From positions 1 to 10,870 of the forward strand of contig CAMYZK010000049.1 in assembly GCA_947303825.1 (NCBI GenBank): DNA of 10,870 nt. Direction: 5' to 3'. The DNA comes from an uncultured Prevotella sp. (GTDB lineage: Bacteria; Bacteroidota; Bacteroidia; Bacteroidales; Bacteroidaceae). A program made the position numbers and the translations under genes. The notes under the pieces are model-generated. The model searched no databases. It had not been told where the DNA came from and was given only the letters and a program-made list of their open reading frames with translations. This document shows positions 1-10,870 of this stretch, piece by piece (the stretch's first letter is position 1; each line of letters starts with the position of its first letter).

Positions 1-106
1 CAGAGCACTGTCCACTGCCACAAACAAACTGCACTACGTGACCTGCAGAAAAAGCAATACCGGCTATCTCGGCAGCACCAGTAATGTCATCGGCAATAAC
101 AATCAT
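1..106 (-). CDS. Four-carbon acid-sugar kinase (DUF1537), N-terminal fragment
   Basis: Only the first 35 codons lie in the window; the gene runs off the left edge. The ATG is at 106-104 and the product begins MIVIADDITGAAEIAG. The motif IADDxTGA near the N-terminus is the hallmark of the DUF1537 kinases (OtnK/DtnK/DenK types), which phosphorylate tetronates or 3-oxo-tetronates at O4 using ATP; its aspartates lie in the sugar-acid-binding N-terminal domain. The gene is the last visible member of the minus-strand set and lies directly downstream of a PdxA2-type dehydrogenase. That pairing is the known D-threonate route (DtnK plus PdxA2), so D-threonate 4-kinase is the best guess; 3-oxo-acid kinases of the same family are alternatives. 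The upstream leader shows no Shine-Dalgarno sequence. The family call is firm from the motif and the neighbour, but substrate and integrity of the gene cannot be judged from 35 residues. Confidence 0.85.
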   Translation of the reverse strand, partial: MIVIADDITGAAEIAGIAFSAGHVVQFVCGSGQCS

Positions 107-120
107 TAGTATAGTGTATA

Positions 121-162
121 TAGAGTGTAGAATTTAGAGTGTAGAGTGTAGAGTTTAGAGTT
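121..162. repeat. Heptamer tandem array, 6 units
   Basis: Six in-phase 7-bp units read TAGAGTG, TAGAATT, TAGAGTG, TAGAGTG, TAGAGTT, TAGAGTT on the + strand. The array lies about 15 bp upstream of the DUF1537 kinase start. The purine-rich strand is +, opposite to the related array at 305-346, so the two arrays face each other across 163-304. Confidence 0.85.
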
Positions 163-187
163 TGCTACCGCTTGCAGGGTATCGTTT

Positions 188-283
188 TTCGCTCGGCTCT
201 GCCGCTTGGCTCGTCCAAGAACTCCTTTAACTTCTTTAACTCCTTTCGCTCGGCTCTGCCGCTTCGCTCGTCGAAGAACTCCT
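188..283. repeat. Two direct copies of a two-hairpin repeat
   Basis: Two 39-bp copies (188-226 and 245-283) match at 37 of 39 positions. Each holds two abutting hairpins. Hairpin A is CGGC-TCT-GCCG (194-204 and 251-261). Hairpin B is CTTGG-CTCGT-CCAAG in copy 1 (205-219) and CTTCG-CTCGT-CGAAG in copy 2 (262-276). The only two differences between copies pair with each other, so the stem is kept. Each copy is followed by a TTTAACTTCTTTAACT stretch (about 226-241 and 295-310). A third, inverted copy lies at 7606-7648. The 226-bp gap between pdxA2 and the kinase gene (107-332) holds these repeats and the flanking heptamer arrays; I see no small gene or clear terminator in it. Confidence 0.85.
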
Positions 284-304
284 AAAAAAGAGTCTTTAAC
301 TTCT

Positions 305-346
305 TTAACTGTTAACTCTTAATTCTCAACTCTTAACTCTTAACTC
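305..346. repeat. Heptamer tandem array, 6 units, over the pdxA2 stop
   Basis: Six in-phase units read TTAACTG, TTAACTC, TTAATTC, TCAACTC, TTAACTC, TTAACTC on the + strand (GAGTTAA type on the coding strand). The array overlaps the end of pdxA2: the stop codon (335-333) and the last residues, VKS, are encoded by repeat units. Confidence 0.85.
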
Positions 347-1364
347 GATACACCGCCATGCGTGTGGCATAGTCTATGGAGAGCGTCATGGCCGAGTCGT
401 TGGCGATGCCCTTGCCTGCCACATCGAAGGCAGTGCCGTGGTCTACCGAGACGCGTATAATGGGCAGTCCGAGGGTGATGTTAACGCCGCTGGCACTCTC
501 CATCTTTCCGGTTTCCTTGTTCCAATTGAAAGCACAAACCTTCAGGGGAATATGTCCTTGGTCGTGATACATGGCCACGACACCATCGTACTGTCCGCAC
601 TTGGCCTTGGCAAACACACTGTCTGGAGGCACGGGACCGTCAACGTCGAAGCCTCTGCCCTGCAATTCCTCTATGGCAGGAATGATTTCCTGTGCTTCTT
701 CCCAGCCAAACATGCCGTTCTCACTGCTATGGGGGTTAAGGCCGGCCACACCGATATGAGGTTTCTCGATGCCAAACTGACGGCAGGCATCGTCGATAAG
801 CTCAACACATTCGATGATACGAGGTTTCTTCACCAGGTCACAGGCCTTGCGCAGCGGCACGTGGGTGGACACGTGGATGACGCGGATGTTCTCATCGGCC
901 AGCATCATGGCATACTTGTTCGTACCGGTGAAGGTGGCGTAAATCTCTGTATGGCCGTCATAGTGGTGTCCTGCCAGGTTGAGAGCCTCCTTGTTGAGGG
1001 GAGCGGTGACGGTGCCGTCCACCTCGTTGGCCATGGCGAGGTCGATGGCCTTACGGATATACTGGAAGGCGGCATTGCCGCACTGTGCCTGTACCTTGCC
1101 GAACTCGAAGGTGGAGAGGTCTACGCATTGCAGGTCTATCACGTCGATGGTGCCGTACTCGAACTTGGCTTCTTTAACCTCTTGTATGGCGTTGACAGCC
1201 AGGTCAAAGCCCAACAGACCTACTGCCTGCTGCATGATGGCGGCATCGCCAGTAACTAGGGGGCGGCACTTCTCGTAAGTCTCTTTTCTGTTCAGGGCGC
1301 GCACGGTTATCTCTGGACCTATGCCTGCGGGGTCGCCCATGGTGATGGCTAATATGGGTTTCAT
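333..1364 (-). CDS. pdxA2: PdxA2-type 4-phospho-D-threonate dehydrogenase
   Basis: A 343-residue PdxA-family protein of normal length. It opens with the family motif MGDPAGIGPE (residues 9-18). The metal-binding histidines expected from E. coli PdxA are present: H168 in STHVPL, H212 in LNPHSSENG, and H267 in MYHDQGH; GHTE is at 137-140. The family carries out NAD(P)-dependent oxidative decarboxylation of 3-hydroxy-acid 4-phosphates in the cytoplasm. In vitamin B6 synthesis the substrate is 4-phosphohydroxythreonine, but the PdxA2 branch, encoded beside DUF1537 kinases as here, converts 4-phospho-D-threonate to dihydroxyacetone phosphate and CO2. The adjacent kinase gene and sugar-acid genes favour PdxA2. 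From memory, the vitamin B6 PdxA of Bacteroidales has a diverged GDxNGIGYE motif, unlike this one. The ATG at 1364 begins at the expected motif distance. The C-terminal VKS and stop come from a heptamer repeat. The kinase start lies 226 bp downstream. Confidence 0.88.
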   Translation of the reverse strand: MKPILAITMGDPAGIGPEITVRALNRKETYEKCRPLVTGDAAIMQQAVGLLGFDLAVNAIQEVKEAKFEYGTIDVIDLQCVDLSTFEFGKVQAQCGNAAFQYIRKAIDLAMANEVDGTVTAPLNKEALNLAGHHYDGHTEIYATFTGTNKYAMMLADENIRVIHVSTHVPLRKACDLVKKPRIIECVELIDDACRQFGIEKPHIGVAGLNPHSSENGMFGWEEAQEIIPAIEELQGRGFDVDGPVPPDSVFAKAKCGQYDGVVAMYHDQGHIPLKVCAFNWNKETGKMESASGVNITLGLPIIRVSVDHGTAFDVAGKGIANDSAMTLSIDYATRMAVYRVKS

Positions 1365-1377
1365 TTTTCCTTTTTTT

Positions 1378-1441
1378 TCGATATTTCGTTATGTCGTTAT
1401 TTCAATATTTCGGCTCGTCGATATTTCGTCATGTCGAATTA
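1378..1441. repeat. Octamer tandem array, 8 units, ending at the dehydrogenase stop
   Basis: Eight in-phase 8-bp units, each starting TC, read on the + strand TCGATATT, TCGTTATG, TCGTTATT, TCAATATT, TCGGCTCG, TCGATATT, TCGTCATG, TCGAATTA. The last unit contains the stop codon of the alcohol dehydrogenase (1441-1439). The array fills nearly all of the 74-bp gap before pdxA2. Units 1-2 and 6-7 form a 19-bp direct repeat with one mismatch. Confidence 0.85.
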
Positions 1442-2653
1442 ATAAAGCGAATTATAAATGTCTCTTGCATCCTGTTCGGTTACTTCCCTGGGATTGTTCT
1501 TCAGCAAGCGCTGCACCTGCATTGCAGCCTTTGCCATGCCGTCGACAGCAGTCTGAGGAATGCCCAGTGCCGTCAGCTTGTCAGGGATGCCTACGGCCTC
1601 GGCTAACCGATAGATGAAGTCCACTCCTCGCTGTGCCGTTTCTTCGTCAGTGTGTCCTGCGGTTATACCACAGGCAATGGCCACGTCAGCATAGCGCTGC
1701 ACGGCGGCAGGCATGTTGTCCTTGCCGACATCGGACGCAACTCGGCCATTTATGCCAGCATGATGGCACTCGCTGCTCCCGATGTTAAACTTCATGACGC
1801 TGGGCAGCAGGATAGCGTTAGACAACCCGTGAGGTATATGGAACTCCCCGCCTAGCGGATAGCTCAAGGCATGTACGGCTGCTGTGTTGACGGGCCCTAG
1901 GCACAATCCTCCGTAGAGCGAGCCAAAGGCCAGCGCCTCGCGTGCTTCTACATCCCTGCCATCGCGAACGGCACGCTCCAGATGGGCAGCGATGAGACGT
2001 ATGCCCTGTAGGGCATAGATGTCTACAGAGGGGTGGGCAAACTTATTGGTATATGCCTCTATGCAGTGCGTCAGGGCATCCATGCCGGTGTCGGCAGTCA
2101 CCTTGGCAGGCACTGTCCATGTCAGCTTGGGGTCCACGTATGCTGCATCGGCAATGAGGAAAGGCGATACTATGCCTTTCTTCAGGTGGTCGCGCTCGTC
2201 AAGCAGAATGGCATTTGGCGATACCTCGCTGCCTGTACCTGCCGTTGTGGGCAGACAGGCGAACCACAGGCCTTTCTTCTTGATGAAACCTGTTCCGAAG
2301 CAGTCCTCCACCTGTTGGCTGCTGCCATAGAACGCAGCCACCAGCTTTGCCACGTCAAGCACACTGCCACCGCCGATGCCTACCACGCTGTCGGCTCCGA
2401 ATGAGCGGGCCAGGCCAAGCACTTCCTTAAAGTCGGCTACCGTTGGCTCGGCCTTGATGCTGCTGTACACCGTCCAGCCCAGGCCGGCCTTGGACAGCTG
2501 GTTCATCGACTCCTCGATGAGCGGCATTATTGGCGGTGCCGTTATGACAAACAGATGCCGCAGTCCCAGCTTCTTGTAATCTTCTACAAAGGTCTCAATG
2601 CAGCCTGTGCCGAACACTATTTTCTGTGGCTGCAGTAGGGTGATAGGTTTCAT
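1439..2653 (-). CDS. Iron-containing alcohol dehydrogenase
   Basis: A 404-residue group III (PF00465) dehydrogenase. The N-terminal nucleotide-binding half shows GIGGGSVLD (92-100) and PTTAGTGSE (135-143). The four metal ligands known from lactaldehyde reductase FucO are conserved with FucO spacing: D192 and H196 in MDALTHCIEA, then H261 and H275 in the C-terminal half. The enzymes are cytoplasmic NAD(P)-dependent oxidoreductases that usually reduce small aldehydes or hydroxy-aldehydes. Its ATG (2653) overlaps the symporter stop as ATGA, so the two are probably translationally coupled. Beside an aldolase gene and a tetronate kinase/dehydrogenase pair, a likely role is reduction of the aldehyde released by the aldolase to a tetronate; this is inferred. 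It could also be a general lactaldehyde or glycolaldehyde reductase. The family call is secure, the substrate is not. Confidence 0.92.
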   Translation of the reverse strand: MKPITLLQPQKIVFGTGCIETFVEDYKKLGLRHLFVITAPPIMPLIEESMNQLSKAGLGWTVYSSIKAEPTVADFKEVLGLARSFGADSVVGIGGGSVLDVAKLVAAFYGSSQQVEDCFGTGFIKKKGLWFACLPTTAGTGSEVSPNAILLDERDHLKKGIVSPFLIADAAYVDPKLTWTVPAKVTADTGMDALTHCIEAYTNKFAHPSVDIYALQGIRLIAAHLERAVRDGRDVEAREALAFGSLYGGLCLGPVNTAAVHALSYPLGGEFHIPHGLSNAILLPSVMKFNIGSSECHHAGINGRVASDVGKDNMPAAVQRYADVAIACGITAGHTDEETAQRGVDFIYRLAEAVGIPDKLTALGIPQTAVDGMAKAAMQVQRLLKNNPREVTEQDARDIYNSLY

Positions 2654-4212
2654 GTCGTTTTTTGTTTTTTACGTTCTTCCAAATAACCAAAGATAGTCAG
2701 CTCCTTGTCGGCCAGTGGGGTCTTGAACAGGAAGCTTGCGGCATAGCCCACCACGAGTACGATGAGATGGCTATACACGCCCAGCATATATTTATGGTGC
2801 GTGAAGTTCCAGCTGCCCAGATCGAGCAGGGTCTCCTTGGCACCCGTTCCGTGTATATCTACTTTAGTCGAGGTGAGCACAGCGTAGGCCGTGAACAGTA
2901 TGGCGGCAGCAATGCCGATGTACAGTCCCTGCTTGTTGGCCCGGCGGCTGAATAGCCCCAGCATGAAGATGCCCACGATGCCTGCGCTGAAGATGGCATA
3001 GAGTGAGAACAGTGCGCCCAGCACGCCCTCGCCGCCCCAGCTGATGTAGAGGCAAGCCACGCCGATGGCACCTGCACCGCTGGCAACCACCATCCACCGT
3101 CCGAAGTGTAGCCGCTGGCGGTCGGTGGCCTTTGGGCGGAAACGGGCATAGTAGTCTTCGACGGCAATGGCCGAGATGCAGTTGAGGTCGCTGTCGAGGC
3201 TCGAGATGGCTGCCGCTGCCAGTGCTGCCACAATGAGTCCGCGTATGCCTATAGGCAGCTCATGGGCTATGAAGTAGGGGAACACCTCGTCGGCTTTGAT
3301 ACCATCGGGCAGGACGGGCGCTCCGGTGGCGTGGTAGTAGGCAAAGAGTGCCGTGCCGATGAACATGAACAATGCCCAAATGGGAACGCTCATCAGCACG
3401 CCGATGTACGCCGCCTTCTTCGCCTCGTGGTCGTTCTTGGCAGCCAGGTAGCGCTGTACGATGGTCTGGTCGGTGCCATATTTCTGCAAGGCATAGAAGA
3501 TGCCGTTGAGCACCATCACCAGGAAGCATAGCTGGGTAAGGCTCCAGTCGTAGGGGCCGAAGTCTATCTTACTGTTGTCAGAGGCTATGCGGAACAGCTC
3601 TGCCGGTCCGCCGTCTATGCCAAACATGATAATAAGCACGCAGATGATGCCGCCACCAATGAGGAGCATGCCCTGGGCCACATCCATCCATACGATGGCC
3701 TCCATGCCACCCAGCAGAGTCAGCAGGACAATGGCTACGCCCAGCACAAGCACAATGGTGAAGATATTGATGTCGAGGAATGTGGAAAGAGCCATTGAGA
3801 CGAGGAAGAACACCGTGCCACTCTTGGAAAAGTGACCCAGGGTGAAGGCTACTGAGCTGTATAGCCTGGCAAATAGTCCGAACCGGCGTTCAAAATATTC
3901 ATAGGTAGACAGCCTGATAACCTTTCTGAACAGTGGTACGATGATGCCTATCAGTGCCACCAGCACAATGGGCACCATCAGCCCCTGCACCAGCAGAATC
4001 CAGTTGCCGCCATACGCCGCACCGGGATAGGCCAGGAAGGTGACGCTACTGATGAGCGTTGCAAAGATGCTCATACCCACAGCCCATGCAGGTATCTTTC
4101 CACTTGCTGCGAAATAGGCCGACGTGTCTTTCTGCCTTCGGGCGAAGAACAGGCCTGCGCCTATAGCCGCCGCTATTGATGCAAGAACAATGATATAGTC
4201 TATCCAGTGCAC
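2650..4212 (-). CDS. Sodium:solute symporter (SSS family)
   Basis: About 520 residues with roughly 13 hydrophobic segments, as usual for SSS transporters (PF00474). Family landmarks include GTDQTIVQRYLAAK in the middle loop and GLIVAALAAAAISSLDSDLN, which matches the SSS signature and carries the serines of the second sodium site. SSS proteins import sugars, sialic acid and other small organic acids with sodium across the inner membrane. I chose the GTG at 4212 (product VHWIDYIIVLAS...) because the first membrane segment starts there, and the only upstream ATG (4293) would overlap the aldolase gene by 41 bp and add a polar, unlikely N-terminus. The gene lies 40 bp after the aldolase gene and overlaps the dehydrogenase start by 4 bp. 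A neighbour from the sialate-lyase family suggests a 2-keto-3-deoxy acid or similar acid sugar as cargo. Confidence 0.9.
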   Translation of the reverse strand: MHWIDYIIVLASIAAAIGAGLFFARRQKDTSAYFAASGKIPAWAVGMSIFATLISSVTFLAYPGAAYGGNWILLVQGLMVPIVLVALIGIIVPLFRKVIRLSTYEYFERRFGLFARLYSSVAFTLGHFSKSGTVFFLVSMALSTFLDINIFTIVLVLGVAIVLLTLLGGMEAIVWMDVAQGMLLIGGGIICVLIIMFGIDGGPAELFRIASDNSKIDFGPYDWSLTQLCFLVMVLNGIFYALQKYGTDQTIVQRYLAAKNDHEAKKAAYIGVLMSVPIWALFMFIGTALFAYYHATGAPVLPDGIKADEVFPYFIAHELPIGIRGLIVAALAAAAISSLDSDLNCISAIAVEDYYARFRPKATDRQRLHFGRWMVVASGAGAIGVACLYISWGGEGVLGALFSLYAIFSAGIVGIFMLGLFSRRANKQGLYIGIAAAILFTAYAVLTSTKVDIHGTGAKETLLDLGSWNFTHHKYMLGVYSHLIVLVVGYAASFLFKTPLADKELTIFGYLEERKKQKTT

Positions 4213-4219
4213 GCTGTGA

Positions 4220-4240
4220 AAATTGAGGATTAAAGATTGA
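4220..4240. repeat. Short heptamer array, 3 units
   Basis: Three in-phase units read AAATTGA, GGATTAA, AGATTGA on the + strand. They fit the RRRTTRA pattern of the other heptamer arrays in opposite orientation to 305-346 and 7684-7718. The array occupies half of the 40-bp spacer between the aldolase stop and the proposed symporter start. With only three degenerate units it is weaker than the others. Confidence 0.5.
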
Positions 4241-4252
4241 AACGAATGGGTA

Positions 4253-5149
4253 CTAAAGTGACTGGACTTTACGGGCGATGGTCTGTTCCTCATCAGCAGA
4301 AAGCCTGGTCAGGGGCATGAGCATCCAGGGGTCGCAGAGTCCCTTGGTCTGCATCATCACCTTCAGTGCGGCAAGGCTCTGTCCCAGAGTACGTCCCTGC
4401 TGGTATATCTTTGCAATGGCATCGGTCTCTGCTTGAAGATGATTGGCGGTCGCCATGTCGCCATGGACAGCTGCCAGATAGAGCTGCTGAAACATCTCTG
4501 GGACGTAGTTGCCTGTTGAGGGCACTATGCCGTCGCCTCCCAGTCCCAGCGAGTGTGCGCTCTGTGCAGCCCATCCGCAGAAGTAGCTGAAGTCTTCTCG
4601 TCCTGTAGCCAGCTCTATGCACTGTGCCATTCGGTCCAGGTCGCGCTCAGAGTCCTTGAGGCCAACAATATTAGGATGATCGGCCAGCCGACAAATTACG
4701 TCTATTGGTATTGACATGTGGGTGGTTGCCAGGATGTTGTATAGCATCAACGGTCCTTCGATGCTGTCGGCTAGGGTGCGATAGTAGTTCTCCATCTGCT
4801 CCGGCGTCAGCGCGTAGTAGGTGGGCAGGGTAGCAACTATGACGTCGGCTCCGGCTTTGGTATATGCTTCTGCCTGTACCTTCTGCTCAACAAAGCAGTT
4901 GCCTGTCAGTCCGGCATAGATGGTTATCGGACGGTTGCTGCGGGCTTTGACTGCCGTTTGTACAAGCAGCAAACCATCATCCTGACTCACGCTGTTGCCT
5001 TCGCCTGTGGTGCCCATCAACAATGGCGATACGCCTGATTGGGCAAAAGAGTCCACAATGAGCTCAACAGCTGCGGTGTCGAGCGTTCCGTCTTCCTTGA
5101 CTGGTGTCACCATAGGCACCACCACTCCTTTGTATTTCTTCTCAATCAT
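4253..5149 (-). CDS. N-acetylneuraminate lyase/DapA-family aldolase
   Basis: A 298-residue class I aldolase/lyase, the normal length for this TIM-barrel family (PF00701). It has GTTGEG (46-51) for binding the keto-acid carboxylate, the catalytic Y137 in LYNIL (proline of the usual YNxP replaced), and the Schiff-base lysine K165 in GLKDS. Y137 and K165 fall at the same numbers as in E. coli NanA. The sialate-lyase GYDE motif after the lysine is replaced by CGWAAQ (191-196), so a sialic-acid lyase is unlikely. The family joins or cleaves pyruvate and an aldehyde. With the symporter, reductase and tetronate genes downstream, cleavage of a 2-keto-3-deoxy sugar acid is most likely. The start is MIEKKYKG at 5149; a longer in-frame reading into GH127 lacks family similarity. 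A 5-keto-4-deoxyglucarate dehydratase-like role is an alternative. Confidence 0.88.
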   Translation of the reverse strand: MIEKKYKGVVVPMVTPVKEDGTLDTAAVELIVDSFAQSGVSPLLMGTTGEGNSVSQDDGLLLVQTAVKARSNRPITIYAGLTGNCFVEQKVQAEAYTKAGADVIVATLPTYYALTPEQMENYYRTLADSIEGPLMLYNILATTHMSIPIDVICRLADHPNIVGLKDSERDLDRMAQCIELATGREDFSYFCGWAAQSAHSLGLGGDGIVPSTGNYVPEMFQQLYLAAVHGDMATANHLQAETDAIAKIYQQGRTLGQSLAALKVMMQTKGLCDPWMLMPLTRLSADEEQTIARKVQSL

Positions 5150-5150
5150 A

Positions 5151-5184
5151 TTTTGATTTCTTGAGCTTTTTGATTTCTTGAGCT
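5151..5184. repeat. Perfect 17-bp tandem duplication
   Basis: The unit TTTTGATTTCTTGAGCT is present twice without mismatch (5151-5167, 5168-5184). It fills most of the 44-bp spacer between the GH127 stop and the aldolase start and forms the A-rich translation leader of the aldolase on the coding strand. Within the unit an 8/9-bp sub-period (TTGATTTC, TTGAGCTTT) is visible. Confidence 0.85.
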
Positions 5185-5193
5185 TTATGAATT

Positions 5194-7377
5194 CTAATAG
5201 GCTGCTGGCATCCATACGGTCATCTCGGCGTGGCCTCTGTTGCCCCATGCGAAGTAGGGTATGAGACGTATGGTCTTCTTCTTCTTCCCTATGCTGACAG
5301 GCTGGTATAGCTGCTGCGGCTGGGGGTGGCTGTCGCGCACGTAAGCCTCTGTCTCCAGAGCCGTGATGCGGCATCCGGCTATCTCCATCTCCACGGGTTT
5401 GAACTGTGCGGTGACGGGCAGCAGGATGTTGTCGATGTCGGTATCGCCAAGGTCGGTGCTCTCCAGGCAGTAGAGCAGGGGGCCGCGCATCACGGCCACC
5501 TGGCCACGGTTCTCCTCTACCAGCGGATGGGCCTCTACTATGCGGGTGGGCATGGCCACCTCGAAGGTGAGGCTGTCGCCCCGCTTCCATGCCCTCCTCA
5601 CCACCAGATATCCCTTGTCGGCAAGGGGCTCCACGGCGTGACCGTTAACGCAGACGGTGGCACTGTCGGCAAACGACGGCAGGCGGATGGCTATCTCCAG
5701 CGCGGCTCCTCGCTTCTGGGCCTTTATATGGTCGATGGTGAGCGTCATGCTGCCGTCCCAGGGATAGCGGGTGGTCTGTGTCAGGCTAAGGGTGCCCACG
5801 CCGTCTATAGCGGTGCTCAGGCGGCTGGCTCCCAGCATGTTGACATAGAGCCGACAGGGGGCGGTGGCGTAGGCGTAGTCTTGGGCCTGGCAGAGGGTGC
5901 GCAGCGTGTTGGGCGGACAGCAGAAGCAGCTGATGTACCGCTTGCGCTCCTTGGGCCAGCGCAGCTTGTAGGGCAGCTCGTCGGTGAGGCGCAGGGGGTT
6001 GGTGTAGAAATAGCGCTCTCCGTCGAGCGAGATGCCGGGCAGTATGCTGTTATAGAGGCAGTTCTCTACCAGCTGGGCATACTGGGCCTGACCGGTGGCC
6101 AGGAGCATGCGCCAGTTGAAGAGCATGTTGCCAATGTTGGCGCAGGTCTCGTTGTGGGCGGTGGAGTGTGGCAGCTGGTAGGGGCGCCCGTAGCTCTGGT
6201 GCACCTTCTGTATGCTGTCGGGGGTGTAGTTGGTGCCGTCGGGCGACGTGCCGTCGTAGAGTGCTCCGCAGGCTCCGTTGATGTACATCTTGCGCTGGGT
6301 GATGTCTTGCCAGATGCTGGTGAGGTTCTTCATCAGCTGCTCCTCGCCGCTCTCCAGGTAGAGGTCGGCAACGCCGGCATAGAGGTAGTTGGCACGCACG
6401 GCATGGCCCATGGCCCGGTACTGCTGCCGGAAGGGTATGCGGTCTTGGTTGTCGTCGGTGCCGTTCTTCACCATTCCGCGAATGTCGATGAACTTCTTGA
6501 GCAGCTCCAGATACTTGGGGTTGCCGCTCTCGCGGTAAAGCTCGGCCACGCCCATGTAGTGCGAGGGGCAGATGGCGTTGCCTGCCAACTCCTGGGGTGC
6601 CCGCTGACAGAAGTTGTAGAGGAAGTCGGCTGCCTTCACGCCCGCGTTGTATAAAGATGTCTTGCCCGTGGCTCGCTTGTGTATGATGCCTGCCATGATG
6701 AGATGGCCCAGGTTGTAGGTCTCGAAGTTCAGGCGGTTCGAGAAAGACCCATCGCCAACAGACTCTCCCCCACCCCCTCCCTTAGAGGGAGGGGAGGAAT
6801 TACCTGGCACGCCTGGAGATGAGTCACCCGACCATGCGCCCTCTACATCAGTTAGTACCTCAGTTTGTACCATGGAAGAGGTATCTACTCCCCTCTCCTT
6901 AGGAGAGGGGTTGGGGGTGAGGCTTTTTATGATGACGGGGGTGTGTATATAGCCGTCGTCGCGCTGTGCCTTCACCACCAGACCGATGAAGCGGTCCATG
7001 ATCTGTTCCAGCTCGGGGTCGTGCGTCACGGCATAGACGGTCGCAACGGCCTCCAGCCACTTGTACATGTCGCCATCGTGGAATGGAGGGCCGTGGTGCT
7101 CGCCCTTCTGCTCGCCAGCGGCAACGAGGAAGTTGGTAAATCCCTTGCCCTCCTTCGACTGCCATGTCTGCCACATGCTCTGCACAGAGGTCTTGCTGAA
7201 CACCGCGAAGCGTTCACCCCAGAAGCCTCCATCCCACTGCACCCCACTGAGGGGCACTGCCGTCATCACGGCGTGGCGGCTCTTGCTGGTGTCTGTCAGT
7301 CCCTGCGCCTTGGCATCGTTGGCCAAGACCAGTCCCATCAGTACAAGGGAGGAAAAAATACGCAATTTATAATTCAT
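5194..7377 (-). CDS. Secreted GH127-type glycosidase with in-frame repeat insertion
   Basis: 727 residues. Residues 1-25 form a signal peptide with a likely cut after AKAQ, so the enzyme should act in the periplasm or outside the cell. Residues about 40-500 match the alpha/alpha-barrel domain of family 127 (beta-L-arabinofuranosidase type), followed by a beta-sandwich region. The zinc/cysteine centre known from HypBA1 is present: E410 and C412 in HNETC, C486 (expected nucleophile) and C487 in CFCCPPN, at nearly HypBA1 spacing. No glutamate lies in the 28 residues before E410, where the HypBA1 acid/base would be expected; the segment is VHQSYGRPYQLP instead. Residues about 152-205 (SLTPNPSPKERG ... 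PPSKGGGGG) are an inserted palindromic repeat that keeps the frame. GH127 members act on L-arabinofuranosides, and one is known as an aceric-acid hydrolase in rhamnogalacturonan II breakdown; the exact substrate here is open. Confidence 0.88.
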   Translation of the reverse strand: MNYKLRIFSSLVLMGLVLANDAKAQGLTDTSKSRHAVMTAVPLSGVQWDGGFWGERFAVFSKTSVQSMWQTWQSKEGKGFTNFLVAAGEQKGEHHGPPFHDGDMYKWLEAVATVYAVTHDPELEQIMDRFIGLVVKAQRDDGYIHTPVIIKSLTPNPSPKERGVDTSSMVQTEVLTDVEGAWSGDSSPGVPGNSSPPSKGGGGGESVGDGSFSNRLNFETYNLGHLIMAGIIHKRATGKTSLYNAGVKAADFLYNFCQRAPQELAGNAICPSHYMGVAELYRESGNPKYLELLKKFIDIRGMVKNGTDDNQDRIPFRQQYRAMGHAVRANYLYAGVADLYLESGEEQLMKNLTSIWQDITQRKMYINGACGALYDGTSPDGTNYTPDSIQKVHQSYGRPYQLPHSTAHNETCANIGNMLFNWRMLLATGQAQYAQLVENCLYNSILPGISLDGERYFYTNPLRLTDELPYKLRWPKERKRYISCFCCPPNTLRTLCQAQDYAYATAPCRLYVNMLGASRLSTAIDGVGTLSLTQTTRYPWDGSMTLTIDHIKAQKRGAALEIAIRLPSFADSATVCVNGHAVEPLADKGYLVVRRAWKRGDSLTFEVAMPTRIVEAHPLVEENRGQVAVMRGPLLYCLESTDLGDTDIDNILLPVTAQFKPVEMEIAGCRITALETEAYVRDSHPQPQQLYQPVSIGKKKKTIRLIPYFAWGNRGHAEMTVWMPAAY
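6763..6924. repeat. In-frame palindromic element inside the GH127 gene
   Basis: Two inverted copies of a C/G-rich unit bound the insertion. The left copy (6763-6797) has perfect 9-bp arms CCCCTCCCT and AGGGAGGGG around TAG (6774-6794). The right copy (6888-6923) has perfect 10-bp arms CCCCTCTCCT and AGGAGAGGGG around one T (6890-6910), followed by a TTGGGGGTGAGG tail. The tails point outwards. The total of about 162 bp is a multiple of three and stop-free on the coding strand, so it adds about 54 low-complexity residues. The flanking protein sequence (DDGYIHTPVIIK and SNRLNFETYNLGHL) reads as normal GH127. Confidence 0.8.
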
Positions 7378-7430
7378 AACTCAATCTACTTTAAATAATC
7401 CGCTACCGTCAACCAACGAGCCGCATGGCA

Positions 7431-7534
7431 CTCCCCTCCCTTGTAGGGCAGGGGCAGGGGTGGGGTGACTAACTCTTTCAGCGGCTGAGAGATACCTACC
7501 CCACCCCCGACCCCTCCCCTTAAGGGGCGGGGAG
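7431..7534. repeat. Inverted pair of G/C-rich palindromic units with G4 motifs
   Basis: Unit 7431-7468 (palindrome CTCCCCTCCCTTG..., then G-rich tail) and unit 7496-7534 (C-rich tail, then palindrome CCCCTTAAGGGG) are inverted copies with tails facing inwards across about 27 bp. They align with the two units inside GH127. The left unit carries GGG-CA-GGGG-CA-GGGG-T-GGGG on the + strand (7446-7465), and the right unit carries a matching four-run motif on the minus strand (7499-7519). Both fit the quadruplex pattern with 1-2-nt loops. Confidence 0.8.
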
Positions 7535-7605
7535 CGGCTGCGCACAGATTTCTTCTCGGAATGCTCATTTCTGGACTTTTTAAAGTGGGCTCTTTGCTCT
7601 CATCA

Positions 7606-7648
7606 GGGGTTCTTGCGTCCCTTCGGTGGCAAGCGGCAAAGCCGAGCG
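7606..7648. repeat. Inverted third copy of the two-hairpin repeat
   Basis: On the minus strand this matches the copies at 188-283: hairpin A is CGGC-TTT-GCCG and hairpin B has arms CTTGC/GCAAG (+ coordinates 7629-7633 and 7612-7616). The B arms differ from both other copies yet still pair, while the loop is 12 nt instead of 5. The outer GGNGTTCTTG and CCGAGCG blocks are conserved. Confidence 0.7.
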
Positions 7649-7683
7649 CACCTCTGCCTGTGGTCTGAACGCCCCTTCGGGGC

Positions 7684-7718
7684 TTAATTCTCAACTCTTA
7701 ATTCTTAACTCTCAATTC
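7684..7718. repeat. Heptamer tandem array, 5 units, over the lipoprotein stop
   Basis: Five in-phase units read TTAATTC, TCAACTC, TTAATTC, TTAACTC, TCAATTC on the + strand, the same family and orientation as 305-346. The lipoprotein stop codon (7714-7712) lies in the last unit, which also encodes the terminal asparagine. Confidence 0.85.
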
Positions 7719-8401
7719 AATCCGTAGGGCGACACTTTGTACGTGGCATCGTCGAAGTTGTCGTAATTGCGGGAGTTAATCTCGTCAACATACATCACCA
7801 GAGGCCCCATCTTCTTGTCGTATGCAAAGACAATGCAACCGCCACTGACGTTTATGCAGTCTACGCCTTCACAGAATCCCGACACCTTGGAGTGGTATTT
7901 CTTTTCCAGTTCAGGTACGATGGTGTTGTACATATACGACTCTCCCCTGCTCGTGTCGTAGTGCAGGTCTAACTCCATGACGTTCCACACCTTGTTTGTC
8001 CTTTTGTCGTAATAGACCCAAAGGGCGTTGAACTGGTTGTAGTACTTGTACAGCTTGCGGGCCAGGTTCTTCTCACCCAGGCTGTATCCTTGTGCCTCCA
8101 GCTTTTTTCGGAACATGTCGATGGTCATATTGAGCGACAGGCCTCCATACTTGATGTGTGTGCCTGTTGCATCGGTGCTTTCTGCACCGTTGCTCTCTGT
8201 CTCGTTACCCTCGGCTACGGCAGTCTCCGATTTGCTGTTCTCTGCTTCGTTGACCTCTGCCTCAATTTTGTCTCCCTCTTCTTCATCGTCGTGGTTGTTG
8301 CTTTTTGCGTTGCCTTGGCTACAGCTGGCCATCAGGAAAACGAAGGAGAAGACGGCCAACGTCTTGGCTGTAAACATAAAAATAATGTTTTTCATAATCA
8401 T
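7712..8401 (-). CDS. Lipoprotein of unknown function with acidic linker
   Basis: 229 residues, or 227 if the second ATG (8395) is used. A lipoprotein signal peptide ends in FLMASC with C27 as the lipidation site. Residues about 38-78 form a low-complexity linker rich in Glu, Asp, Asn, Ser and Ala. Residues about 83-229 look like a compact globular domain starting YGGLSLNMTIDMFRKKLEAQ, with three cysteines (FCEGVDC and GGC). The start of this domain resembles small Bacteroidales envelope proteins with a GxxLxxxxxxFxxKLxxxG pattern, but I do not recognise a named family. It should sit in the outer or inner membrane facing the periplasm; the acidic residues are too far from C27 to claim the Bacteroides surface-export signal. 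It lies 60 bp after the TIM-barrel gene and 334 bp before GH127, so it probably shares the operon. No function can be assigned. Confidence 0.85.
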   Translation of the reverse strand: MIMKNIIFMFTAKTLAVFSFVFLMASCSQGNAKSNNHDDEEEGDKIEAEVNEAENSKSETAVAEGNETESNGAESTDATGTHIKYGGLSLNMTIDMFRKKLEAQGYSLGEKNLARKLYKYYNQFNALWVYYDKRTNKVWNVMELDLHYDTSRGESYMYNTIVPELEKKYHSKVSGFCEGVDCINVSGGCIVFAYDKKMGPLVMYVDEINSRNYDNFDDATYKVSPYGLN

Positions 8402-8424
8402 CTGGTTTTTAGTGGGTTATTATG

Positions 8425-8472
8425 TCCTTGTGTTTGTAAGTTCTTGAGTTTGTGAGTTTTCTCATTTTCTCG
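8425..8472. repeat. Octamer tandem array, 6 units, over the TIM-barrel gene stop
   Basis: Six in-phase 8-bp units read on the + strand TCCTTGTG, TTTGTAAG, TTCTTGAG, TTTGTGAG, TTTTCTCA, TTTTCTCG. The stop codon of the TIM-barrel/DUF3826 gene (8464-8462) lies inside the fifth unit, and the last coding residues (SRK) also come from the array. The array fills most of the 60-bp spacer to the lipoprotein gene. Confidence 0.65.
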
Positions 8473-9910
8473 ATTTCATTCTCTCGTACCACTGCTCACG
8501 CTCCTTGGCAAGGTCGTAGCCACGGCGGGTGAGGTAGTTATTTATGCGCCCTTTGTACTTGCCGAAGACCTCATGCTTCTTCTTCGAGCTCTCGGCATCT
8601 ACAGCCAGCTCGCGTGCCTCTATGAGCCAAGCCATTATCTGCTGCTTTTCCTCGTTGGTGAGCGATGGAATCATATCGCAGTGAGCATCGTAGGTCACTT
8701 TCACCACGTTGAAGGTCATCACGTCTTTTACCGTTTCTATTTCCTGTGGCTTGAGGTACATGGAAAGGTCAGCATCGAAGTCGAAATGCGAACGGTAGAG
8801 CTTCGAGTCGCACTGAGCCTCGGCCAGCTTCTTGTCGGTCTTCTTCAGTGAGTCACGCTCGGCGTAGATGTCGTTCAGTTTGAAATACTTGTTACACACT
8901 ATGTTGAGCACGCTCTGCCCTTCTTCGGTATAGGTGATGCCCAGCTGGTCGGTGGCTTTCTGCGACCGCTGGATGATAGTCTCGACATACTGTGGGTCAC
9001 GTCCGGCACTGTCCAGCTTTACAGCGGGCTCGCTTTCGGGGCATCCCAGTACCCGCTTCAGGTATCGCACGTTGGCACCGTAGTTCATCTTCACGTTGCG
9101 CACCATGGTGGTGTCGCGGCTTCTCTCTACAAAGAACCATCCTTTCCATCCCGTCTGGTCGAGTACCTGCTTGATGGCCTGCATGTCGATGGCCTTGTCG
9201 TTCTGCAGCCATACGCCGTCGGTGTTTGAGGCGTGAATGGCACAGATGTTGGCTGCTCCCAGTGCCTTGATGTCCTTGGCAATGTCGGCCCCTGCCTCCA
9301 GCACGTTTTGGAACTTGTAGAAGATGGCAATGCCCTTGCTGCCTACTTCCTTGAGTAGTTTCTTGTTGCCTTTGGCATCGAGCGGAGTATCTATGCCTAC
9401 CACCAGTCCGCGTTTTTTGGCTGCCTCGCCAATGTCGTGCAGACGCTTTACCACCTTGATGCGCTTCTCGCGGTCGGTAGTCCAGTTGTTTCCGCATCCA
9501 CCCAAGGGGAGGAAGGCCACCTTCACGCCGCCCATCCTGTCCATGGTGTCGAAGCAGTCGGCAGCCAAGTCCATATAGTTGTCTCGCTGAGTAAGGTCTT
9601 GGGCATACAGTCCGCTCATGGCCACTGCTCCCACAGCCACACCTAGTGAGTCGGCCACACGCTTGAAGTGTGCTGCCTCGCCTGCATCGCGCAGCTTATT
9701 GTCGAAGAGCACACGCTGCCCCAGTCCGCCCATGTCGAGCTCCACACCGTCGGCACCAAGGGTCTTGGCCAGCTGGAACTCGCCTAGCTTCTGCCGCTTC
9801 AGTATCATCCAGTCGCACACTCCCACGCGATAACGCGCTTCCTGTGCTTCTGCCAAAGAGGGTGCAATAAGCAATGCTGCCATGATTAGCATTAAGTAGT
9901 TTTTCTTCAT
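8462..9910 (-). CDS. Secreted TIM-barrel/DUF3826 fusion protein
   Basis: 482 residues from the ATG at 9910. Residues 1-22 form a signal peptide (MKKNYLMLIM..., likely cut near AEAQ), so the product is exported. Residues about 26-288 match the xylose-isomerase-like TIM barrel (PF01261), with E57 in GVELDMGG, D174 in VGIDTP, H226 in AIHASNTDG and E262 in FVERSRD as plausible metal ligands. Residues about 305-478 match DUF3826, including NDIYAERD, MTFNVVKVTYDA, MIPSLTNEEKQQIMAWL and FGKYKGRINNYL. DUF3826 proteins are usually stand-alone and uncharacterised. The barrel family includes sugar isomerases and epimerases, but export argues against a phosphorylated substrate. The open frame extends 32 codons upstream, across the promoter boxes, and those are rejected. 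It is the first gene of the minus-strand set, directly behind a consensus promoter. Specific activity unknown. Confidence 0.85.
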   Translation of the reverse strand: MKKNYLMLIMAALLIAPSLAEAQEARYRVGVCDWMILKRQKLGEFQLAKTLGADGVELDMGGLGQRVLFDNKLRDAGEAAHFKRVADSLGVAVGAVAMSGLYAQDLTQRDNYMDLAADCFDTMDRMGGVKVAFLPLGGCGNNWTTDREKRIKVVKRLHDIGEAAKKRGLVVGIDTPLDAKGNKKLLKEVGSKGIAIFYKFQNVLEAGADIAKDIKALGAANICAIHASNTDGVWLQNDKAIDMQAIKQVLDQTGWKGWFFVERSRDTTMVRNVKMNYGANVRYLKRVLGCPESEPAVKLDSAGRDPQYVETIIQRSQKATDQLGITYTEEGQSVLNIVCNKYFKLNDIYAERDSLKKTDKKLAEAQCDSKLYRSHFDFDADLSMYLKPQEIETVKDVMTFNVVKVTYDAHCDMIPSLTNEEKQQIMAWLIEARELAVDAESSKKKHEVFGKYKGRINNYLTRRGYDLAKEREQWYERMKSRK

Positions 9911-9939
9911 AATAGCATCCGTTTTTGATAAAAATCGGG

Positions 9940-9971
9940 GCAAAGTTACAAAAAGTTGAGAGCAAAACAAA
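9940..9971 (-). promoter_or_regulatory. Bacteroidetes-type promoter for the minus-strand operon
   Basis: On the minus strand TTTG (9971-9968), a 19-bp spacer and TAACTTTGC (9948-9940) match the Bacteroidetes primary sigma consensus (TTTG, 19-21 bp, TAnnTTTG). The start codon follows 29 bp downstream, implying a leader of about 20 nt. It is the only promoter I found for the whole co-directional gene set. Confidence 0.7.
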
Positions 9972-9991
9972 ACAAAAAAGAAAAAAAATCG

Positions 9992-10000
9992 TACCTTTGC
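9992..10000 (+). promoter_or_regulatory. Probable tyrS promoter -7 box
   Basis: TACCTTTGC on the + strand matches the TAnnTTTG box, 41 bp before the tyrS ATG. The expected -33 TTTG is missing; the region is A-rich (9963-9988). The box is divergent to the operon promoter, with about 43 bp between the two -7 boxes. Confidence 0.55.
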
Positions 10001-10041
10001 AGCCAAATTGCAAACAATAGGAAAAACTTATATAGAAAACG

Positions 10042-10870
10042 ATGAGAAAAAACTTTGTTGAAGAGCTCCGCTGGCGCGGAATGCTGGCACAGATTATGCC
10101 AGGAACGGAAGAACTGTTACAGAAAGAAATGGTGACGGCCTACCTGGGTACCGACCCCACAGCCGACTCACTGCACATAGGCCACCTCTGCGGCATTATG
10201 ATGCTGCGTCACCTGCAGCGCTGCGGACACAGGCCCGTCATTCTCGTTGGCGGTGCCACAGGCATGATTGGCGACCCCAGCGGCAAGAGCCAGGAGCGTA
10301 ACCTGCTGAACGACGAGACGCTGCGCCACAACCAGGAATGTATCAAGGCTCAGGTGGCTAAGTTTCTGGACTTCGAGTCGAAGGAGCCCAACGCTGCCAT
10401 CATGGTGAACAACTACGACTGGATGAAAGACTTCACCTTCCTAGACTTTGCCCGTGAGGTGGGCAAGCACATCACCGTAAACTACATGATGGCCAAGGAG
10501 AGTGTGCAACAGCGACTGAACGGTATGGCCCGCGACGGACTGTCGTTCACGGAGTTCACCTATCAGCTGCTACAGGGCTACGACTTCCTGTACCTCTACC
10601 AGCATTACGGCGTGAAACTGCAGCTTGGAGGCAACGACCAGTGGGGCAACATGACTACGGGTACAGAACTCATTCGCCGCACACTGGGCAACGAGGTGGA
10701 GACCTTCGCGCTCACCTGCCCCCTCATCACCAAGAGCGATGGTAAGAAGTTCGGCAAGACAGAGAGCGGTAACATCTGGCTTGACCCGAAGCGAACCACA
10801 CCTTATAGCTTCTACCAGTTCTGGCTCAACGTCAGCGACGACGATGCCGAGCGCTACATCAAGATATTCA
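10042..10870 (+). CDS. tyrS: Tyrosine--tRNA ligase, N-terminal part
   Basis: The first 276 codons of a class I aminoacyl-tRNA synthetase; the gene runs off the right edge. It starts [20 protein letters not shown]. The HIGH signature is LHIGHL (44-49), and the KMSKS equivalent is KFGKT (236-240), as in E. coli-type bacterial TyrRS. Other family landmarks are [12 protein letters not shown] (34-45), [12 protein letters not shown] (69-80) and [11 protein letters not shown], where the tyrosine-binding QxxxGGNDQ-type block lies. It attaches tyrosine to tRNA-Tyr in the cytoplasm. The C-terminal S4-like anticodon-binding domain would lie outside the window. It is transcribed away from the operon on its left and is a housekeeping gene with no evident functional link to it. 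Confidence 0.97.

Follow-up and report, generated by a model that had tools for sequence, protein, structure and literature searches.

In the catabolism of D-threonate, a D-threonate kinase (DtnK, of the DUF1537 family) and the dehydrogenase PdxA2 yield dihydroxyacetone phosphate and CO2. The aldolases of the DapA/N-acetylneuraminate lyase (NAL) family carry a lysine as Schiff-base residue and a tyrosine as catalytic residue, and many sialate clusters have a Na+ symporter adjoining the lyase. Rhamnogalacturonan II (RG-II) ranks with the most complex polysaccharides of plants, and it is known which hydrolases dismantle it. Here, we describe a set of five adjacent genes that resembles each of these systems in part, located in a stretch of 10,870 nucleotides, hereafter the window, from an uncultured Prevotella sp. 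(GenBank assembly GCA_947303825.1, contig CAMYZK010000049.1, called C49 below, positions 1 to 10,870 of the forward strand). We consider it rather probable that these five genes constitute a catabolic module for 3-deoxy-D-lyxo-2-heptulosarate (Dha) freed from side chain D of RG-II.

The five genes are all on the minus strand, as a previous reading of the window made from its letters (the sequence-only reading) had described, and their families were confirmed by profile matches, though the kinase gene is cut. They encode a DapA/NAL-family class I aldolase, the predicted Dha aldolase (4253-5149; PF00701, 166 bits), a sodium:solute symporter of the SSS family, the predicted inner-membrane importer of Dha (2650-4293; PF00474; TIGR00813, 210 bits, above the cut-off of 184), an iron-type alcohol dehydrogenase (Fe-ADH), predicted to reduce a C4 aldehyde acid to D-threonate (1439-2653; PF25137/PF00465), a PdxA2-type dehydrogenase, predicted to act on 4-phospho-D-threonate (333-1364; PF04166, 362 bits), and a DUF1537 (DtnK-like) kinase, of which the first 35 codons from the ATG are present (1-106). 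The window opens with the first base of C49, in an assembly of 2.6 Mb that is 71% complete and divided into 385 contigs, and the kinase gene, interrupted by the contig end, is the only partial one of the five, the other four being complete. Another contig of this assembly, C305, encodes a full-length DUF1537-family kinase of 385 amino acids (L001:796-1953, minus strand), adjoined by a gene of glycoside hydrolase family 95 (GH95). As the overlap between the window and C305 is identical at 154 of 171 positions (90%), C305 holds a variant of this same region and does not continue C49 exactly; its origin is perhaps a different strain within the bin.

We infer the substrates and the order of the steps as follows. 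Dha would be imported by the symporter and cleaved by the aldolase, via a Schiff base, into pyruvate and (2S,3S)-2,3-dihydroxy-4-oxobutanoate, which the Fe-ADH would reduce to D-threonate. The kinase would then convert D-threonate to 4-phospho-D-threonate, and PdxA2 would oxidise and decarboxylate the latter to dihydroxyacetone phosphate and CO2. The NADH used by the Fe-ADH would be recovered at PdxA2, and the reduction and oxidation would offset each other, suiting an anaerobe. The stereochemistry proposed in the sequence-only reading was re-derived by hand, with the same outcome: the D-lyxo configuration has C4 left, C5 left and C6 right, cleavage between C3 and C4 gives OHC-CHOH(left)-CHOH(right)-COOH, and this product, turned round, has C2 left and C3 right, so that its reduction gives D-threonate. 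Among the RG-II sugars considered, Dha alone would supply, besides pyruvate, a C4 acid on which a D-threonate kinase and PdxA2 could act; no tetronate is an obvious product of 3-deoxy-D-manno-octulosonate (Kdo), aceric acid, apiose or sialate. In the open-access literature, which omits most subscription journals, no breakdown route for Dha was found, in line with the earlier remark that none was known.

Using the aldolase alone as query on one genome per species, a scan that reaches close relatives only yielded 60 named loci, mostly from Prevotella-type metagenome-assembled genomes (MAGs) and also from Palleniella, Hoylesella, Alistipes, Paludibacter, Flavobacterium, Belliella and Pleomorphovibrio; many of the genomes compared throughout are MAGs. 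The aldolase is present in all 60 loci, the symporter in 58, PdxA2 in 46, and the Fe-ADH and the kinase in 45 each. Since 40 of these 60 aldolase-fetched loci have all five genes, in identical order and strand throughout the 40, the set is more than a chance arrangement. The Fe-ADH is the sole missing gene in five loci (L024, L027, L032, L036 and L041), four (L022, L026, L033 and L034) have only the aldolase and symporter near each other, L040 resembles these four, L050 has only the aldolase and the Fe-ADH, and the remaining nine incomplete loci stop at or near a contig end. The Fe-ADH, PdxA2 and kinase genes are grouped elsewhere, beyond the DNA of the aldolase-symporter locus, in genomes G166, G170, G177 and G178 (L132, L133, L131 and L135, respectively); in G184 they were found outside the DNA of L040, which ends at a contig end, hence a split is not demonstrated there. 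Searching for PdxA2 in the genomes of loci with the aldolase and symporter only, we did not find it in G182 (1.8 Mb). In G194, whose locus has neither symporter nor PdxA2 nor kinase, the best match of the same search is a PdxA of 36% identity, and the best matches in G206 and G208 (L137 and L136) are probably those already within L062 and L064.

Other arrangements were found outside the class of the window. In the family f17, the order is Fe-ADH, aldolase, PdxA2, kinase and symporter in L113 and L117, and Fe-ADH, aldolase, PdxA2 and kinase, with no symporter in view, in L116; in L114 it is symporter, kinase, PdxA2, aldolase and Fe-ADH. As the set is shuffled yet retained in these four loci, we regard its genes as belonging to one pathway. 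An aldolase relative in G600 stands without any further member of the set in the 19.9 kb retrieved. One locus, L030, is in a record labelled as a Bacillota MAG and encodes an aldolase, symporter, Fe-ADH and PdxA2 that are 63-74% identical to those of the window; a wrong label or a mixed bin appears more likely than a transfer.

The protein BT_1020 presumably carries GH143 (Dha hydrolase) and GH142 (arabinofuranosidase), and PF24067 is the BT_1020-type propeller (Beta-prop_BT_1020), which we take to be GH143. The GH143 label used here comes from this Pfam name and from the match of the L113 copy to residues 26-595 of PDB 5mqr, an entry deposited as a beta-L-arabinobiosidase. A co-occurrence of the gene set with GH143 had been named beforehand as a check on the Dha route, and it was found: PF24067 is present in 57 of the 60 genomes with an aldolase locus (49/50 and 8/10). 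In a sample of 151 genomes from the family to which the window belongs, with the aldolase called at E 1e-50, PF24067 is present in 5/5 aldolase genomes vs 15/146 others, one of these 15 being under the cut-off (Fisher p 2.5e-5, relatedness ignored). In a phylum sample of 395 genomes, with the aldolase at E 1e-60 and up to five candidates scored per genome, at least six genomes have an aldolase match, five of them within the set, and PF24067 is above the cut-off in 3/5 set genomes vs 19/390 others (p 0.0014, relatedness ignored), G600 being counted among the genomes without the set. The two samples overlap in some genomes.

GH143 is also found beside the set, within the locus DNA in 4/60 loci (L044, L045, L058 and L066) and in L113. 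In L066, a single strand carries a GH28 gene, an arabinosidase-like gene, GH143, the aldolase, symporter, Fe-ADH, PdxA2 and the kinase, and GH143 ends at 9918, 82 bp before the start of the aldolase gene at 10001. A relative of the arabinosidase-like gene in L058 carries PF22847. In L045, a protein that combines PF24067 with a sialidase-like carbohydrate-binding module and an MGH1-like GH domain is encoded divergently, one gene off the aldolase. In G241, GH143 is on the contig of the set, about 7 kb past the symporter gene, in surroundings that also encode sulfatases, BNR_2 and laminin-G proteins. Like the BT_1020-type RG-II loci of Bacteroides, the loci compared here have PF24067, GH95 and GH127 in the same genomes or loci. 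The co-occurrence with GH143 and the stereochemistry support the route from Dha to D-threonate as a whole, with substrates that are predicted from sequence.

The aldolase belongs to the DapA/NAL class I superfamily by its PF00701 match, its lysine and tyrosine and its (beta/alpha)8 fold. Lys164, Tyr136 and Arg168 are invariant in 20/20 aligned sequences, and the AlphaFold2 model (mean confidence score, pLDDT, of 96) matches the dihydrodipicolinate synthase (DHDPS)/NAL fold with template modelling scores of 0.87-0.93 by query length among the matches listed. In fold, Schiff-base lysine and tyrosine, the protein resembles NAL and the 2-keto-3-deoxy-sugar-acid aldolases, and its gene adjoins that of a symporter, as in sialate clusters. 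It is unlike NAL and DHDPS in its motif K-D-[SA]-E-R-D, in which the invariant Arg168 stands four residues past the Schiff-base Lys164, and in addition it has Ala/Gly-Ala where NAL has Asp-Glu. A contact of Arg168 with the far carboxylate of Dha is our conjecture. An ordinary DapA was rejected, as the protein scores 150 bits vs a cut-off of 206 and has Thr141, in 20/20 sequences, where DHDPS 2ehh has Arg (position of E. coli Arg138). N-acetylneuraminate lyase was likewise rejected, because the products of sialate would leave the kinase and PdxA2 idle; the scores are 84 vs 382 bits for nanA and 98 vs 281 for PRK04147, and no search for sialate partner genes was made.

The dehydrogenase is nearer to PdxA2 structures than to PdxA, its phmmer scores against the PDB being 315 bits for 4jqp, 306 for 2hi1 (PdxA 2) and 287 for 6e85 (D-threonate 4-phosphate dehydrogenase), and about 190 bits or less for the other PdxA entries. 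It passes the general pdxA model TIGR00557 (353 bits, cut-off 290). A vitamin B6 role was rejected for it, a second PdxA being present in all 5 genomes checked, including the assembly of the window, where it lies on contig C29. The kinase of C305 matches PF07005 (SBD_N) with 104 bits, and, of the NCBIfam models, D-threonate kinase scores best with 7/8 kinases scanned (that of C305 and 6/7 relatives); for the L066 kinase, the best model is 3-oxo-tetronate kinase. Both enzyme types are adjacent, as in the catabolism of D-threonate by DtnK and PdxA2, and the end product would again be dihydroxyacetone phosphate. Unlike in that pathway, D-threonate would here be an internal intermediate, formed by the aldolase and the reductase and not imported. 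The nearest solved structures of the Fe-ADH are alcohol dehydrogenase 2, methanol dehydrogenase and lactaldehyde reductases.

Several observations weigh against the Dha module. The best PDB match of PdxA2, 4jqp, bears the name 4-hydroxythreonine-4-phosphate dehydrogenase; the protein misses the model for D-threonate 4-phosphate dehydrogenase (NF002891, 341 bits, cut-off 583), and its best NCBIfam model is the PdxA-named NF002992 (411 of 470). The kinase, unlike the curated DtnK, is far under its cut-off, with 91 bits for C305 and 75-120 bits for seven relatives against NF047819 (cut-off 450), and the NBD_C score of C305 is 27.7, with a cut-off of 28.3. No Fe-ADH match at E 1e-20 was found anywhere in genomes G122, G168, G171, G176 and G185, and the best match in G180 is of only 26%; a move of the missing gene to another place in the genome was thus rejected, and another reductase must act in these six genomes. 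PF24067 is absent from three of the aldolase-locus genomes (G194, G206 and G208) and partial in G180, and the set-bearing G284 and G386 do not have it either. Conversely, 15/20 PF24067 genomes of the family sample, and most of those in both samples, have no aldolase, so that GH143 is not sufficient for the set, which differs from the usual RG-II equipment as an extra, presumably cytoplasmic, module. Finally, an aceric-acid-hydrolase-like GH127, counted above a threshold of 700 bits, is present in 33/39 aldolase genomes (hand-chosen among 69 known) vs PF24067 in 34 of the same 39, and G208 has such a GH127 and no PF24067.

These last counts bear on aceric acid as the substrate, the adjacent GH127 freeing it and the five genes degrading it. 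The GH127 gene (5194-7377, minus strand) is upstream of the aldolase gene, as the sequence-only reading had stated, at a distance of 44 bp, and with 926 bits against NF049879, the model for aceric acid hydrolase, its product just misses the cut-off of 950. At about 6730-6920, it contains an additional in-frame segment with many Pro, Gly and Ser residues, which resembles a repeat insertion and may explain the score just under the cut-off. GH127 was rejected as a conserved partner of the set, which also speaks against aceric acid, because no relative above 80 bits was found in the DNA around the other 60 loci; moreover, the set-bearing genomes G241 and G284 do not match the aceric acid hydrolase model at E 1e-30, and aceric acid would yield no obvious C4 acid for the tetronate kinase and PdxA2. 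With 33/39 vs 34/39, co-occurrence alone cannot pick among the RG-II sugars, whose genes co-occur as a block. We therefore regard aceric acid catabolism as highly improbable, and GH127 as probably part of the RG-II context, outside the Dha route. A simple uptake of tetronate, in which the symporter, kinase and PdxA2 would import and use D-threonate or D-erythronate and the aldolase and Fe-ADH would be unrelated, agrees with the types of the kinase and PdxA2, which match described tetronate pathways by NCBIfam and PDB names. However, the symporter remains with the aldolase where the set is split, the aldolase remains with the kinase and PdxA2 through the rearrangements of L113, L114 and L117, and the link to PF24067 would be unexplained. 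Clusters that lack pectin genes and are consistently tied to the uptake of tetronate or apionate, which the sequence-only reading had named as evidence to the contrary, were not found; a few loci adjoin a possible apiose-type module. We give this explanation very little credence.

A wider role, in which the aldolase and the symporter serve both 2-keto-3-deoxy acids of RG-II, has more in its favour, and is nevertheless unlikely in our view. Kdo would be cleaved to pyruvate and D-arabinose, Dha to pyruvate and the C4 acid; the Fe-ADH, kinase and PdxA2 would be the Dha half only, and a module of a fucose-isomerase-like protein, an FGGY kinase and a split transketolase would handle the pentose. 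Indeed, a fucose-isomerase-like gene is upstream in 8/60 loci, with the FGGY kinase in 6 and the transketolase halves in 5, and also beside the set of L114. In L062 (G206, one of the genomes without PF24067), the set is adjoined by a rhamnosidase-BNR_2 fusion, which would be apt for side chain C (rhamnose-Kdo), and the sets of L113 and L117 have BNR_2 proteins as neighbours. On the other hand, no fucose-isomerase-like gene is found in the locus DNA of 52/60 loci, several of which are cut by contig ends, a split transketolase with a glycerol-kinase-like FGGY kinase fits the breakdown of D-apiose equally well, and Kdo requires none of the three tetronate genes. The module of split transketolase, glycerol-kinase-like FGGY kinase and fucose-isomerase-like gene, a candidate route for D-apiose or for D-arabinose (Kdo), precedes or flanks the set in L013 (3522-10008), L008, L010, L011, L015 and L114, and pectate-lyase-like genes accompany it in Prevotella loci. 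Near the set, we also observed a BNR_2 sialidase-like domain fused to an FGE-sulfatase (sulfatase-modifying-factor-like) domain in L117 (3948-6440) and to an alpha-L-rhamnosidase in L062 (16062-19814, minus strand); both fusions are candidate new ulosonic-acid hydrolases.

Plant walls may not be the only source of Dha. G241 combines the set and GH143 with sulfatase surroundings, and the aceric acid hydrolase model finds no match in it. In Tetraselmis suecica, Dha reportedly makes up 17% of the intracellular and cell wall polysaccharide (PMC7693365), less than Kdo (54%), a proportion that also favours the shared aldolase, and Dha with Kdo is reported for green-algal scales too (PMC1413533). As both acids occur there, an algal source for the set of G241 is a reasonable guess, and in this one lineage with sulfatase-bearing loci Dha possibly comes from algal walls. 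A single ulosarate/ulosonate aldolase module, with which Bacteroidota would finish Dha via D-threonate and Kdo via the pentose module, from RG-II and, in a separate sulfatase lineage, from scaly green algae, appears doubtful.

Further upstream in the window, the minus-strand gene at 8462-10006 encodes a TIM-barrel plus DUF3826 protein (PF01261, PF12875), as previously described and confirmed by profile matches, which is possibly part of the RG-II context; its BLAST relatives recur near GH143 in L115, L123 and L125. Between it and GH127, an open reading frame of 229 codons (7712-8401, minus strand), whose product has an acidic, Glu/Ser-rich N-terminal part, matches nothing in Pfam, NCBIfam or PADLOC. 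The stretch between the PdxA2 and kinase genes (187-283) contains two copies of a 40-base repeat that are 95% alike; the repeat is also present in C305 (1147-1223), where its two copies fall within the open frame of the GH95 gene. The 19-base core of this repeat has 83 occurrences in the genome, with at most 1 mismatch, vs 0 for the reversed control.

Standards of Dha are lacking, according to a 2025 review (PMC12168206), and, if the Dha module is confirmed, its aldolase could serve for making Dha. The fate of freed Dha, of which we found no account in the open-access literature, becomes a testable question with this set. The genes would then also provide markers for the use of Dha in rumen and gut metagenomes. 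One of the rarest plant-wall sugars would have a redox-balanced breakdown route of five genes, paired with a named hydrolase, in what looks like a module used by some gut, rumen and environmental bacteria.

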